Origin: an uncultured Anaeromyxobacter sp.
Lineage (GTDB): Bacteria > Myxococcota > Myxococcia > Myxococcales > Anaeromyxobacteraceae
NCBI GenBank assembly: GCA_903855945.1
Contig: CAIOAK010000111.1
Span: forward strand, 1 to 41,978
Reading direction: 5' to 3'
DNA length: 41,978 nt
Shown: piece after piece, positions 7,768-41,502 of the stretch
Layout of the letters: every line of letters starts with the position of its first letter
Position numbering within the stretch: the first letter of the stretch is position 1
The notes under the pieces: model-generated
What the model was told of the DNA's origin: nothing
Databases searched by the model: none
The model's input: only the letters and a program-made list of their open reading frames with translations
Made by a program: the position numbers and the translations under genes

Positions 7768-8495
7768 ACTGCGACATGGGGGAAGGGGCCGGCGAGGACG
7801 CCGGCATCCTCCCGTTCGTCTCCTCCGTCAACGTGGCGTGCGGCTTCCACGCCGGCGATCCCACGACCATCCGGGAGACCATCCGGCTGGCGGCGCGCCA
7901 TGGCGTGGCGGTCGGGGCGCACCCCTCCTACCCGGACCGGGCCGGATTCGGGCGGCTGGCGATGGACCGTCCCGCCGACCGGGTGAGGGACGACGTGCTC
8001 TACCAGGTGGCCGCCCTGCGGGGCTTCTGCGCCGCCGAGGGCGTTCGTCTGGTCCACGTGAAGCCCCACGGGGCGCTCTACAACGCCGCCGCGCAGGATC
8101 CGGCGCTGGCCCGGGCCATCGCCACCGCCGTCCGCGAGGTGGACCCGGAGCTCGTCCTGGTCTGCCTGGCCGGGTCGCCCATGGTGGGCGTGGTGCGCTC
8201 CCTCGGGCTGCGCTGCGCCGAGGAGGCCTTCGCCGACCGTGGGTACACTCCGGGTGGAACGCTCGTGCCGCGCGGGGCTCCGGGCGCGCTCATCGAGGAC
8301 CCCGGGTCGGTGGCGGAGCGCGTGGCCGGGCTGGCGCGCGACGGGCGCCTCACCGCCGTGGACGGCCGGCCGGTGGCCGTCGCCGCGGACACCGTCTGCC
8401 TCCACGGGGACACGCCGGGCGCGGCGGCCCTGGCTCGGGCCATCCGGGAGCGGCTCGCCCGCGAGGGGATCGAGGTGCGGGCCCTGACGGGGTAG
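7752..8495 (+). CDS. pxpA: 5-oxoprolinase subunit A (LamB/YcsF family)
   Basis: 247-aa catalytic-fold subunit of 5-oxoprolinase. LamB/YcsF signatures are all present: DLNCDMGEG at residues 4-12, NVACGFHAGDP, GAHPSYPDRAGFGR, VKPHGALYN, FADRGYTPGGTLVPRG, and CLHGDTPGA near the C-terminus. The ATG at 7752 gives the canonical N-terminus and lies inside the end of pxpC. The frame is open far upstream, but that translation is Arg-rich noise. Last gene of the regulator-pxpBCA operon; it converges on the lipoprotein gene. Confidence 0.94.
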   Translation: MAIDLNCDMGEGAGEDAGILPFVSSVNVACGFHAGDPTTIRETIRLAARHGVAVGAHPSYPDRAGFGRLAMDRPADRVRDDVLYQVAALRGFCAAEGVRLVHVKPHGALYNAAAQDPALARAIATAVREVDPELVLVCLAGSPMVGVVRSLGLRCAEEAFADRGYTPGGTLVPRGAPGALIEDPGSVAERVAGLARDGRLTAVDGRPVAVAADTVCLHGDTPGAAALARAIRERLAREGIEVRALTG

Positions 8496-8512
8496 CTCCG
8501 CCCTGGTGGAGC
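8495..8512. terminator. Weak hairpin between convergent genes
   Basis: Arms GCTCC (8495-8499) and GGAGC (8508-8512) enclose an 8-nt loop in the 20-nt gap between convergent pxpA and the lipoprotein gene. There is no U-tract on either strand, so intrinsic termination is uncertain. Confidence 0.3.
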
Positions 8513-8515
8513 GCG

Positions 8516-9859
8516 CTATCCGCCCCGGGACATCCGCTGGGACGCCCAGCGGTACAGGAGCGCGGCCGCGAGGACCGAGAGGACGAGCACCAGGGCCAGC
8601 GCGAGCGCGCGACCGAAGGCGTAGTCCACGAGCGCGCGCCCCCGCTCCGAGGCCTCCCGTCCCGCGTCGCCGATCAGCGCCGCGATGCGCGGTGCGTCCC
8701 GGTTCACCGAGCGAAGCAGGGTATCGAGCTCGGTGGCCGAGCGGCCGAGCTGCTCGAGGGCCCGCGTGTACTCGTTCACGTCGAAGGGGTGGGAGGGCGG
8801 GGTACCGGGAGGAGCCGGCTTGCTGGTGACCGCGAGGATGGCGTCGAGCGAGCCGAGCGCCCCGTGTACGGCGTTGGCGGCGCCGGTCCCGGCGTCGAGG
8901 GTCCGGCGCATCTCGGCGAGGAGCGTGCGCGCGCGGGTCTCCTGGGCCGAGAGCGCGTCCAGGAACTGCCGGATGGCCGCCTCCCGCTCCCGGTCCACGA
9001 GCGCAGGCAACCCCTCCGCCGTCCGGGCCGCAGACTCCACGGCGAGCGCGGCGCGGCTCACGTCGGTGAGCGCCTGGGCCGGGGCGGGCTGGGCCGCGAG
9101 CTGCAGCGTGAGGAGGCGGGTCTGCATCTCCAGGATCCGCGGCCAGCGCTTCGCGAAGTAGAAGGCCCGCTCGGCCAGGAGCCGGCTTCGCTGGACCTCC
9201 TGCACGGCGGGGTCGATCCCGCCGAAGGGATCGAGCCCGACCGACCGGAGGACGTCCGTCGGGGTGCCGAGACCCGCCGCCGAGCTCCCCGGGATGGAGC
9301 CCAGGTCGGCGAGCCGGATCGAGGAGACGTCGCGGACGTCCGGGTTCCGCGCCATCCAGCCCTCGATGAACTGCCGGAGCTTCGTCTCCTGATCCGCGTC
9401 CATGACGCGGCCGGCGATGGCCCATACCCTTGCGTCGAGCCGGGCGAGCACCTTGGAGAGCAGCTCCCCGTTGGCGCCGAACGACTCCTGGACGGCGTGC
9501 CGGTCCACGGTCGCGCGGGTCGCCGTGACCAGGACCACGAGGTCGATCAGGTTCGCGACCGGGCCCTCTCCGGAGGCGATCTCGTAGGCGGCGGTGGCCT
9601 GCCGGACCTGGAAGCCGAGGAGGCGGACCTGCGCTTCCTGGGTGGTCGCGGGGAATCGGGACGTCGCGTCGAGGATCTCCCCGACGTAGACGTCGGCGAA
9701 GGCCATGACGTCGGCCTGGACCTGCGCGATCTTCTCCTCGTCCGCCTTCTGCTGGGCGGAGCCGGTGATGTAGCCCATGCCCGAGGAGAAGGTCGAACAG
9801 GACGCGAGCAGGTTCGCCGCCACGACCGTGACCAGGAGGGTTCCGAGGTGCTTTCGCAT
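8516..9859 (-). CDS. Predicted lipoprotein with C-terminal membrane helix, unknown function
   Basis: 447-aa protein I do not recognise. Residues 1-20 form a lipoprotein signal with lipobox L-A-S-C21; Ser at +2 would normally direct it to the outer membrane. The body is almost entirely helical and charged, with long amphipathic stretches (about 55-160 and 220-400) suggesting coiled coil. Residues about 418-436 are strongly hydrophobic, followed by a basic tail, so a second membrane anchor is predicted. It lies 52 nt downstream of the hybrid kinase on the same strand and is probably co-transcribed with glmS and the kinase. Lipid anchor plus C-terminal helix could tether two membranes, but this is speculation. 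Confidence 0.75.
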   Translation of the reverse strand: MRKHLGTLLVTVVAANLLASCSTFSSGMGYITGSAQQKADEEKIAQVQADVMAFADVYVGEILDATSRFPATTQEAQVRLLGFQVRQATAAYEIASGEGPVANLIDLVVLVTATRATVDRHAVQESFGANGELLSKVLARLDARVWAIAGRVMDADQETKLRQFIEGWMARNPDVRDVSSIRLADLGSIPGSSAAGLGTPTDVLRSVGLDPFGGIDPAVQEVQRSRLLAERAFYFAKRWPRILEMQTRLLTLQLAAQPAPAQALTDVSRAALAVESAARTAEGLPALVDREREAAIRQFLDALSAQETRARTLLAEMRRTLDAGTGAANAVHGALGSLDAILAVTSKPAPPGTPPSHPFDVNEYTRALEQLGRSATELDTLLRSVNRDAPRIAALIGDAGREASERGRALVDYAFGRALALALVLVLSVLAAALLYRWASQRMSRGG

Positions 9860-38482: not shown

Positions 38483-40153
38483 ATGGTCTCCGACCCCATC
38501 GCCCCGCTGGCCCGCATCGTCCCCCTCCCGTCCTCCCGGGGGCCCGCGGCTGTCCCTGCGCCCGCCACCCACCGGATCGCCGTCTTCACGGCCGATCCCG
38601 GCTACTCGGTCCGCAAGGGGATCGTGGAGATCGACCGCACCATCCCGGGGCTCTCCTGGCTCATCGTCCACCACAGGCCGCGGCGGACCCGGAAGCAGGT
38701 GGCCCGGAACCAGTGGAACCTGCTCAAGCGAAACGGGTGGCGATGGATCCCCTACCAGGCCGGAGCGGTGTGGAAGCGGCTCGCGGAGCGGCGGGCCGCG
38801 GTCCCCGTACCCGCGGAGCACCCGGGCGGCGACTACACCTCCGAGGCCCTCGCAGCCCGGACCAACATCCGGATCCTGCGGGTGCCCGACATCCACGGCC
38901 AGGCGTCGCTCGACGCCATCCGGGAGTTCGATCCGGACCTGGGGCTCGCCATCTCCGCCCCCATCCTGCGCCCCCCCGTCTTCACCTCACCCCGCAGGGG
39001 ATCGCTGACCCTCCACAAGGGGAAGGCCCCCGACTACCGCGGCATGCCGCCGGCATTCTGGGAGCTCTGGAACGACGAGAAGGAGGTGGGTTGCACCATC
39101 CAGGTCGTCGCCGAGAAGCTCGACGCCGGCGACATCGTGGGTCGGGGCTCGGTGCCCTGCGGCCCACACTCCACGGTCCGCGGCATCACGCTCCGGCTCG
39201 ACGAGGTGGGCGTGGACCTGATGCGCGACGCGGTCCGCGACACGCTGGCCGGGACGTCCCATCCCGAGATCCAGACCGGCCAGGGAAAGACCTACCGGAA
39301 GCCCACCCTGGGGCAGATCGCTGCGCTGGAGGGGAAGCTCGCCCGGGCGCAGCCCCCCCGGCGTTCGCCCGCCGTCCGCGCCGTCAAGGACTCCCTCTTC
39401 GGCATGGGGCACGCCGCGTGGCGGGCCGGGCTGGGCAAGGTGCTGGCGCCCCGGATCACGGTCCTCCTCTACCACCGGGTCACGGACGACGCGCGCGACG
39501 ACCTGACCGTGGGCGTGGAGCAGTTCGACCGGCAGATGGCGCTCCTGCGCCGCCACTGCCAGGTACTGACCATCGACCAGGTGCTGAACGCCTCGGAGAT
39601 CGACCCGGCCGGCAAGCCCCAGGTGGCGGTGACCTTCGACGATGGGTACCTCGACAACCACGACAACGCGGCGCCCATCCTGGAGCGGCACGGCATCCCG
39701 GCCGCCTTCTTCGTGAGCACCGGCCTCATCGGCACCGCCGCGCAGTTCCCGCACGACGTCCGGCGCGGGAACGCCCCCATCCCACTCATGACCTGGGACC
39801 ACCTCCGGGCGATGCGGGATTCGGGCTTCGAGATCGGGTCCCACACCGTGGGACACACCAGCTGCGCCTCGGGGACCGACGAGGAGATCCGGAGCGAGCT
39901 GGAGCGGTCCCGCGACGACCTGCAGCGGGAGCTCGGTGTGGTGTCACCCATCTTCGCCTATCCGTACGGGGGCAGGCAGCACATGACCCCCGGCCGGCTC
40001 GAGATGGTGAAGCAGGCGGGCTACCGGGGCTGCCTCGCTGCCTACGGGGGGAGCAACGTGGCCCGGGTGGACCGGTTCAACGTGCTCCGTCGAGGCATCC
40101 ACTGGGAGTACTCGGACCGGGCCTTCCTGTTCGAGTGCCTGGGGGTGAGGTAG
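38483..40153 (+). CDS. Fusion: formyltransferase-like domain and polysaccharide deacetylase
   Basis: 556-aa protein. Residues 30-270 resemble N10-formyl-THF-dependent formyltransferases: SLTLHKGKAPDYRGMPPAFW (174-193) and EKLDAGDIV (211-219). The His178-Asp214 pair has the same 36-residue spacing as in methionyl-tRNA formyltransferase, but the usual Asn two residues before the His is Thr176. Residues 325-550 are a NodB-type deacetylase: TFDDG (384-388) with catalytic Asp386 and metal Asp387, HTVGH (454-458) with both metal His, and YPYGG (493-497). No signal peptide or membrane helix is evident, so both reactions would be cytosolic. ATG 38483, 23 nt after the hydrolase. Deacetylation of an N-acetyl sugar followed by N-formylation is a plausible reading; loss of Asn could instead mean a different acyl donor or an inactive domain. 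Confidence 0.85.
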   Translation: MVSDPIAPLARIVPLPSSRGPAAVPAPATHRIAVFTADPGYSVRKGIVEIDRTIPGLSWLIVHHRPRRTRKQVARNQWNLLKRNGWRWIPYQAGAVWKRLAERRAAVPVPAEHPGGDYTSEALAARTNIRILRVPDIHGQASLDAIREFDPDLGLAISAPILRPPVFTSPRRGSLTLHKGKAPDYRGMPPAFWELWNDEKEVGCTIQVVAEKLDAGDIVGRGSVPCGPHSTVRGITLRLDEVGVDLMRDAVRDTLAGTSHPEIQTGQGKTYRKPTLGQIAALEGKLARAQPPRRSPAVRAVKDSLFGMGHAAWRAGLGKVLAPRITVLLYHRVTDDARDDLTVGVEQFDRQMALLRRHCQVLTIDQVLNASEIDPAGKPQVAVTFDDGYLDNHDNAAPILERHGIPAAFFVSTGLIGTAAQFPHDVRRGNAPIPLMTWDHLRAMRDSGFEIGSHTVGHTSCASGTDEEIRSELERSRDDLQRELGVVSPIFAYPYGGRQHMTPGRLEMVKQAGYRGCLAAYGGSNVARVDRFNVLRRGIHWEYSDRAFLFECLGVR

Positions 40154-40154
40154 G

Positions 40155-40174
40155 GAGGCCTCGCGCGGTGCCTC
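40155..40174. terminator. Weak hairpin between convergent genes
   Basis: GAGGC (40155-40159) pairs with GCCTC (40170-40174) across a 10-nt loop, between the converging deacetylase fusion and channel-like genes. No U-tract. Confidence 0.25.
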
Positions 40175-41285
40175 AGCCGATCGCGCTCCAGGGGACGATG
40201 GTGTTCGCCGCCACGCAGCAGGCCGCCACGACGAAGAACATCGTGCGGTCGAGGACGAAGGACATCTCCTTCTCGTTCTTCCGGACGAGGAAGTAGGTGG
40301 AGAGCATCCCGAGCACGACGGTCAGGAAGATGGTGCCCTGCCCGAACGCCAAAACGTAATCGACGAGGCCGAACGTGCCGGACGGGGGCAGGATGGAGTT
40401 GACCACGTAGGAGTTGGCCACGGCCCCGAAGTAGGCGGCCGTGGGCAGCGCCAGCCGGGGCGCCACGTCGGACGCCTTCACGAAGAAGCTCGACAGCGTC
40501 AGCGACAGCGCGGCGAAGAGCGACAGGAAGATCTTGCCGTACACCCCGAGGCTGGACCGGGCGATGTCGATCCCGAGGATGTACTGGCTGAAGGTCTTCG
40601 AGTCGGCTCCGGTCCATCTGGGGTCGCCGTACGCCACCCGGTAGGTGTGGGGCTTGGCGGTGCTCCGCGCACCGGTGATCCTGTAGCCCGGGATGCGCGC
40701 TCGGGAACTGACGCCCGAGGTCGGGTCGGCCACGTAGCGCAGCCGGGTGCCGTCGCGAGATCCGTCCTCGATGAAGACGTTCAGCATGTGCCCCTCGACC
40801 GGCACACGCAGCGTGTCGAAGAACTTCAGGAACTTCCCGGAGAGCCGGTACCTCTGGTAGTTCGTGCCGTCCTGCCCGTGGAACTCCTCGAGCAGTTCCT
40901 TCCGGGTGACCTTCCCGTCGATGATCACCATCCGTCCTCCGGGGTCGAGGGAGGGGTCCCCGATCCAGTGAAACCAGACGTGGAGTTCCGCCGACCAGGT
41001 GGAGTCGCGAAGGGACAGTCCGTCGATCCCGTCCACGTAGGTGCCCACCCGGACGGTGGTGAAGTCGCCCTCGGGGGGCAGGGGGTTGGGTGGCGTGTTC
41101 CCGGGCTCGACACCGACGACGCTCATTCGCAGCGCGTGGTTCCGGGTTGCGTTTTCGCGATTCCGGGTCAGCACCGACACGCACAGGGCGATGCAGAGTG
41201 CGTAGGCGAGGACGACGGCTCCGGCGATGGCCAGCACCATCCGCCTCTGGCCTGGACCGAGTTCCCGCCAGGACTGGATGAACAT
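40173..41285 (-). CDS. Pentameric ligand-gated ion channel-like protein
   Basis: 370-aa membrane protein with the layout of the prokaryotic Cys-loop-less pLGIC family. Residues 17-39 are a hydrophobic signal or anchor. The ligand-binding-like beta domain (about 76-245) shows VRVGTYVDGIDGLSLRDSTW, then SAELHVWFHW (98-107), matching the D-x-T-(W/F)-x-A-x-x-x-x-W-x-x-W signature, and FFDTLRVPVEGHMLNVFIED (155-174), matching the region around the Cys loop. Four C-terminal helices follow (about 250-270, 276-297, 304-335, 343-368); the short ILPPSG link between the second and third resembles the M2-M3 loop. No Cys pair is present in the loop. The ATG at 41285 has a GGGAGG ribosome site. Ligand, ion selectivity and a link to the exopolysaccharide locus are unknown; distant similarity could also mean a non-channel relative. 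Confidence 0.68.
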   Translation of the reverse strand: MFIQSWRELGPGQRRMVLAIAGAVVLAYALCIALCVSVLTRNRENATRNHALRMSVVGVEPGNTPPNPLPPEGDFTTVRVGTYVDGIDGLSLRDSTWSAELHVWFHWIGDPSLDPGGRMVIIDGKVTRKELLEEFHGQDGTNYQRYRLSGKFLKFFDTLRVPVEGHMLNVFIEDGSRDGTRLRYVADPTSGVSSRARIPGYRITGARSTAKPHTYRVAYGDPRWTGADSKTFSQYILGIDIARSSLGVYGKIFLSLFAALSLTLSSFFVKASDVAPRLALPTAAYFGAVANSYVVNSILPPSGTFGLVDYVLAFGQGTIFLTVVLGMLSTYFLVRKNEKEMSFVLDRTMFFVVAACCVAANTIVPWSAIG

Positions 41286-41403
41286 TCACGCCTCCCAGTG
41301 AACCCGGGCCGGATCAGCCACAGTGGCATCTCCGACACTTCGAGCTGAACCGCGACAGCATGCGTCACGCGGAGTGGGTTCGCCAGAGCCCCTGTAGGTC
41401 AGG

Positions 41404-41502
41404 GCAATTTGCATCTGCGGGCACGGGCGGGACGGAGATGATGAGGATTGCTCAGTAAGACTCACTCACGGCTTACCCATCCGGGTGGAGCAATTTGCAT
41501 CT
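41404..41502 (+). repeat. Two copies of a 13-bp direct repeat in an intergenic region
   Basis: GCAATTTGCATCT occurs at 41404-41416 and 41490-41502, start-to-start 86 bp. The whole 283-bp gap (41286-41568) between the divergent channel-like gene and the lipoprotein gene is less GC-rich than its surroundings. An inverted pair ATTGCTC (41448-41454) / GAGCAAT (41488-41494) spans the second copy. Likely a regulatory region for the divergent genes; no clear sigma factor element was found. Confidence 0.5.

Follow-up and report, generated by a model that had tools for sequence, protein, structure and literature searches.

A probable bacterial pentameric ligand-gated ion channel subunit with two altered hallmark residues

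A gene of a soil bacterium probably encodes a pentameric ligand-gated ion channel (pLGIC) subunit of a divergent lineage, for which a gating mechanism is proposed below. The gene was located in a DNA stretch of 41,978 nucleotides (the window), which was the entire contig C111 of its assembly. Sequence comparison demonstrated homology to the beta domain and helices M1-M4 of the family, with a recognisable M2 and the coupling residues P162, E164, R243, P300 and D309. That the encoded protein works as a functional gated channel is considered reasonably likely. It is a distant relative of the animal neurotransmitter-receptor channels; bacterial relatives are already known, and it is not a new kind of protein. 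Judged by the alignments, what makes this new, divergent and otherwise ordinary member unusual is the alteration of two strongly conserved positions. The structures of neurotransmitter receptors are modelled on prokaryotic pLGICs, and both the M1 proline and the Pro loop are held central to pLGIC gating. The two hallmark changes make the window protein a useful test case.

The reading frame was unbroken over 370 residues from its ATG start (41285-40173, minus strand). Its position-specific GC contents (0.59/0.47/0.92) followed the same pattern as the other genes of this GC-rich genome. Feature positions are listed in Table 1.

Table 1. Features of the pLGIC-family gene in window coordinates
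Feature	Position	Strand	Evidence
pLGIC-family gene	40173..41285	-	370 aa ORF; ELIC E 9e-5; LGIC_1 E 1.6e-4; relatives-only profile E ~8e-66; GC3 0.92
Shine-Dalgarno GGGAGG	41291..41296	-	sequence; 5 nt ahead of the ATG
Hydrophobic N-terminal segment, residues 16-40, probable signal anchor	41166..41240	-	Kyte-Doolittle peak 2.68; no AxA site
Extracellular (ligand-binding type) beta domain, residues 77-243	40557..41057	-	aligns with ELIC from residue 13 onward and with all relatives
Pro-loop tip V161-P162-V163-E164, replacing [F/Y]-P-x-D	40794..40805	-	motif table; PMC4795631 Table 1 frequencies
Pre-M1 Arg243	40557..40559	-	R in 57/57 filled rows
Helix M1, residues 246-268; Ser255 (40521-40523) at kink-proline site	40482..40550	-	motif table
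Pore-lining helix M2, residues 277-297 (R0', A2', F9', A13')	40395..40457	-	alignment to ELIC/GLIC-GlyR
M2-M3 loop Pro300	40386..40388	-	P in 56/57 filled rows
Helix M3, residues 305-330, with Asp309	40296..40373	-	D at 309 in 57/57 filled rows
Helix M4, residues 343-366	40188..40259	-	hydropathy, alignment

Membership of the pLGIC superfamily

Superfamily membership was assessed as homology across the extracellular beta domain and the four-helix domain, and homology was found across both. A Pfam search of the window protein itself detected no channel domain, and the NCBIfam model LGIC_1 matched it weakly (E 1.6e-4). When the protein alone was searched against the PDB with phmmer, ELIC was retrieved in a weak but collinear match (E 9e-5) covering residues 144-331, with a second segment at 77-124; adding the orthologue made the match slightly stronger (E 1.1e-5). 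The weakness of the single-sequence match (E ~1e-4) and the empty Pfam result would suit an unrelated membrane-anchored protein resembling pLGICs by chance or composition. However, a profile of nine relatives, from which the window protein and its orthologue were left out, matched the window protein at E ~8e-66 over residues 26-361 in both domains. The reversed sequence and 200 block-shuffles never scored better than E 12 against this profile, and chance resemblance was thus excluded. Seven of the nine relatives, made into a profile that again omitted the window pair, independently reached GLIC at about 2e-21 over both domains, and the coupling residues were in the right places. A resemblance by chance was refuted at the sequence level and is barely credible.

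A profile including the relatives matched GLIC-type chains in the PDB at E ~1e-26. Of 11 members, LGIC_1 matched ten, TIGR00860 nine and Neur_chan_LBD (Pfam) nine, with E up to 1 or 0.1. Since the relatives match both ends, the chain from the window protein over its relatives to solved pLGICs is closed at the sequence level, and by these comparisons the protein almost certainly belongs to the pLGIC (Pro-loop receptor) superfamily. The initial annotation had proposed a pLGIC-like gene, to be checked by a profile search against solved channels; the profile evidence over both domains bears this out, GLIC being the best family match. AlphaFold2 models of the window protein, computed alone and with the orthologue (one to two sequences), had pLDDT values of 39 and 36, too low for a comparison with the GLIC/ELIC fold.

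Details of the proposed architecture were also recovered. Residues 96-107 and 155-174, named as carrying family patterns, aligned with the relatives' 'F.vDFY.WFrW' strand and the beta6-beta7 (Pro) loop. The four predicted C-terminal helices were present, M2 lying under a plain hydropathy threshold yet aligning as M2, and the loop was Cys-less in the alignment.

Hallmark residues and the N-terminal segment

ELIC and a GLIC-GlyR chimera were among the 58 unique rows of a motif table, of which 57 were filled at the scored positions. Seven superfamily hallmark positions were taken from Table 1 of Jaiteh et al. (PMC4795631). The window protein kept five of the seven (Pro-loop P, E for D, beta9 Y, pre-M1 R and M2-M3 P) and deviated at two, where the Pro-loop aromatic was replaced by Val and the M1 proline by Ser.

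The loop proline, P162 in the window protein, was P in 57/57 filled rows; in the superfamily it is present in 100% and is the sole position called absolutely conserved (PMC4795631). It is preceded by V161, at a site with F in 40 rows, Y in 15 and V in the two orthologues only. F/Y is found there in 96% of the superfamily (PMC4795631), which is a strong family tendency rather than a strict requirement. The acidic loop residue was E164, with D in 55 rows and E only in the two orthologues; superfamily frequencies of 93% Asp and 3% Glu (PMC4795631) mark it as a known minority form, counted as conforming to the Asp hallmark. V-P-V-E was confined to the window gene and a single orthologue among the 57 rows with the loop, and in this sample appears peculiar to their lineage. 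The beta9 aromatic hallmark (W/F/Y) was represented by Y201 in the window protein and Phe in the orthologue. The pre-M1 Arg and the M2-M3 loop proline, both kept, occur in 94% and 88% of the superfamily (PMC4795631).

At the M1 proline position the rows had P 42, G 6, V 4, A 2, S 2 and T 1. The proline noted as lacking in the first C-terminal helix was indeed absent from the window protein (S255). With 77% Pro and 5% Gly in the superfamily (PMC4795631), the kink proline is a tendency, not a strict requirement. According to a passage of Tasneem et al., a helix-bending P, G or S can occupy this position (PMC549065), so that its loss was partly foreseen. In GLIC, conventional substitution of the M1 proline (P203A, L, G) left no response and abolished acid-induced currents, as did mutation of the Pro-loop proline (PMC4813548), which the window protein keeps. 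With neither the M1 proline nor the Pro-loop aromatic in place, coupling must differ in detail from that in GLIC and animal receptors, and with its coupling residues altered, GLIC details are not to be carried over to the window protein.

The M2 entrance had A-P at -2'/-1', versus D or E at -2' in 44/57 rows. Since the acidic residue of most relatives is missing there, the usual cation selectivity is not indicated by the sequence. Positive charges were located in the M1-M2 and M3-M4 loops, where they would fit the canonical topology. In one pLGIC group (L044, L046, L047, L048 and L064), Ala or Asn replaced the basic residue at M2 0'.

The initial annotation had also singled out a hydrophobic stretch after a basic 15-residue leader. 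The stretch exists, but is not unusual per se, because the relatives carry a signal peptide there: their N-termini were mostly signal-peptide-like in the same place, several with AxA-like sites. Only its length and the lack of an AxA site are unusual, the 25 hydrophobic residues being followed by R-N-R-E-N. Owing to this long stretch without an AxA-like site, the segment is probably an uncleaved anchor replacing the family's ordinary signal peptide, and as a novel feature it was reduced to that. Such an anchor would add one helix and leave the topology of the remainder unchanged.

Orthologue, clade and genomic neighbourhood

The orthologue (contig L065, genome G003) encodes a protein 76% identical to the window protein. 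Within Anaeromyxobacteraceae, the family given in the orthologue's record, the gene was found in only 2/24 genomes. The two genes differed at 64/48/96 sites in the three codon positions, with dN 0.16 versus dS 0.41 (NG86). Identity was 90% at residues 269-298 (M1-M2 loop and M2), 85% in the Pro loop and lowest, 33%, in the M3-M4 loop. By these values the window gene is under purifying selection, and the concentration of conservation in M2 and the Pro loop suits a working channel more than a decaying one.

The aligned start of the orthologue (L065:1555 region) was ATC behind GGGAGGAGGAC, a similar Shine-Dalgarno with the same spacing to the aligned start as in the window gene. This may reflect an assembly error, a true start at a later GTG, or initiation at a rare non-AUG codon. 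A 78-base stretch, 77% alike, was shared by window 41355-41432 and L065:242-319 on opposite sides of the channel gene; lying near lipoprotein gene starts, it is possibly a shared upstream element.

In the tree, the window protein and its orthologue formed a pair whose stem measured 1.75 changes per column, nested in a 12-row clade (support 98/95); as false joining of some long branches is possible, the exact sister of the pair is unsure. Together with the motif table deviations, this stem substantiates the divergent subfamily suspected at the outset. The clade comprises proteins from Myxococcota, Azospirillum and Streptomyces (L004-L010, L032, L033 and L034 besides the window pair). The M1 proline was lost in 11/12 members, which have G, A, S or T instead, and by this alignment the loss is a property of the clade. 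Unlike the window pair, the other members kept [F/Y]-P-x-D, and those with readable N-termini mostly had an ordinary signal-peptide look, unlike the window protein.

The stem length and the loss of two residues that are critical or near-fixed elsewhere could instead indicate a protein that keeps the pLGIC fold as a non-conducting sensor or binding protein with decayed gating hallmarks. Decay of conduction would not, however, be expected to leave the M2 region and Pro loop among the best conserved parts between the orthologues. Most of the clade does without the M1 proline while keeping the remaining hallmarks, and the P, G or S alternatives at that site had already been given as helix-bending in the passage cited above (PMC549065). 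This alternative is regarded as unlikely. Counted against the preferred reading, a divergent channel subunit, are the two deviating hallmarks, the currents lost in GLIC on substitution of the M1 proline, the empty Pfam result for the window protein and the presence of the gene in only two species of this sample.

Relatives were found in 28 of the 195 Myxococcota genomes searched, and further ones on Azospirillum and Streptomyces replicons; the viral contigs scanned contained none. The search thus reveals diverse pLGICs in Myxococcota. No paralogue was found in the gene's own genome, and an accessory-subunit role is unlikely for want of such a second member. A Pfam Neur_chan_LBD search of that genome gave nothing, and equally nothing in control genomes.

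Outside the clade, L026-L029 (G087, G079, G077 and G074) had Val in place of the M1 proline and, as aligned here, Asp in place of the beta9 aromatic; the M1 proline was therefore apparently lost more than once. Two different tandem pLGIC genes, only one of which encodes the M1 proline, were observed in genome G147 (L082:6943-8073 and 8013-9011) adjoining a PEP mutase-like gene, and possibly form a heteromeric channel. Myxococcota pLGICs of 730-830 residues carried an SBP_bac_5 domain (OppA/DppA-type, periplasmic binding protein II) after M4, which is a periplasmic C-terminus. It was detected in the six scanned (L023:1-2379, L049:55-2496, L051:1501-3933, L055:1432-3813, L070:651-2852 and L073:1329-3734; Pfam E 1e-30 to 1e-38), and similar lengths were seen in L050, L052, L053, L068, L069 and L072. 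In the relevant passages, Tasneem et al. report PBP-I domains fused at the N-terminus and PBP-II proteins encoded in operons, but no C-terminal SBP_bac_5 (PMC549065); measured against those passages, the C-terminal arrangement may exceed the window gene in novelty.

The channel gene lies beside an exopolysaccharide locus, as initially annotated. Downstream and convergent is a single ORF (38483-40153) in which formyltransferase and polysaccharide deacetylase domains are joined. Ahead of this fusion gene on its strand are genes for a GH123-like protein, a sugar transferase and glycosyltransferases; a Wzz-like protein is encoded at a greater distance. These neighbours are what would recommend the channel as part of the locus, e.g. 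for sensing or balancing ions during polymer export. However, the adjacent gene is convergent and not co-transcribed, and none of the exopolysaccharide genes matched the orthologue contig. A LuxR-type regulator is directly upstream of the channel gene there on the same strand; the other side is only partly seen, since the contig extends just 445 bases beyond the channel gene. The sole neighbour shared with the sister genome, at a distance of 4 kb, was a gene for a putative Ig-domain lipoprotein. Relatives also had varied neighbours (CorA, CNNM/CorC, MFS and chemotaxis genes). A role in the locus is highly improbable, and the idea that its genes define the channel's function was rejected for lack of conservation with the sister-genome contig. 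The adjacency itself is real, but says little on function because it was not seen beside the one orthologue.

Proposed gating and comparison with known channels

By homology, the channel would be a homopentamer of the inner membrane whose sensor domains face the periplasm, the N-terminal hydrophobic segment perhaps serving as an additional tether of each subunit. A periplasmic small molecule or ion may bind between subunits, and its signal would reach M2 by way of the Pro loop (E164 paired with R243) and the M2-M3 loop. The gate at Phe 9' would then open and ions flow through the M2-lined pore. More tentatively, the lineage might gate without an M1 kink proline or Pro-loop aromatic by rearranging its coupling interface, perhaps with help from an uncleaved N-terminal segment acting as a fifth transmembrane helix; this stronger proposal is possible, though on the doubtful side. 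A clade mostly without the M1 proline, containing a lineage with a changed Pro loop, amounts to a natural experiment that could show which elements of the coupling interface are truly needed.

ELIC, the Dickeya/Erwinia chrysanthemi pLGIC, was the best single-sequence PDB match, albeit a weak one. It shares with the window protein the order of beta domain and M1-M4, the Cys-less Pro loop, the pre-M1 Arg, the M2-M3 Pro and the M3 Asp. It differs in having FPFD instead of VPVE and the M1 proline instead of Ser; the long hydrophobic N-terminus is found in the window protein, unlike ELIC. GLIC, the proton-gated channel of Gloeobacter, and the GLIC-GlyR chimera were the best profile matches of the family over both domains; the chimera has the M1 proline, an FPMD loop and Leu 9', whereas the window protein has Ser, VPVE and Phe 9'. 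DeCLIC is likewise a prokaryotic pLGIC, from a host formerly counted among the deltaproteobacteria; it possesses a large N-terminal domain (PMC12664993), in contrast to the short hydrophobic segment and linker of the window protein.
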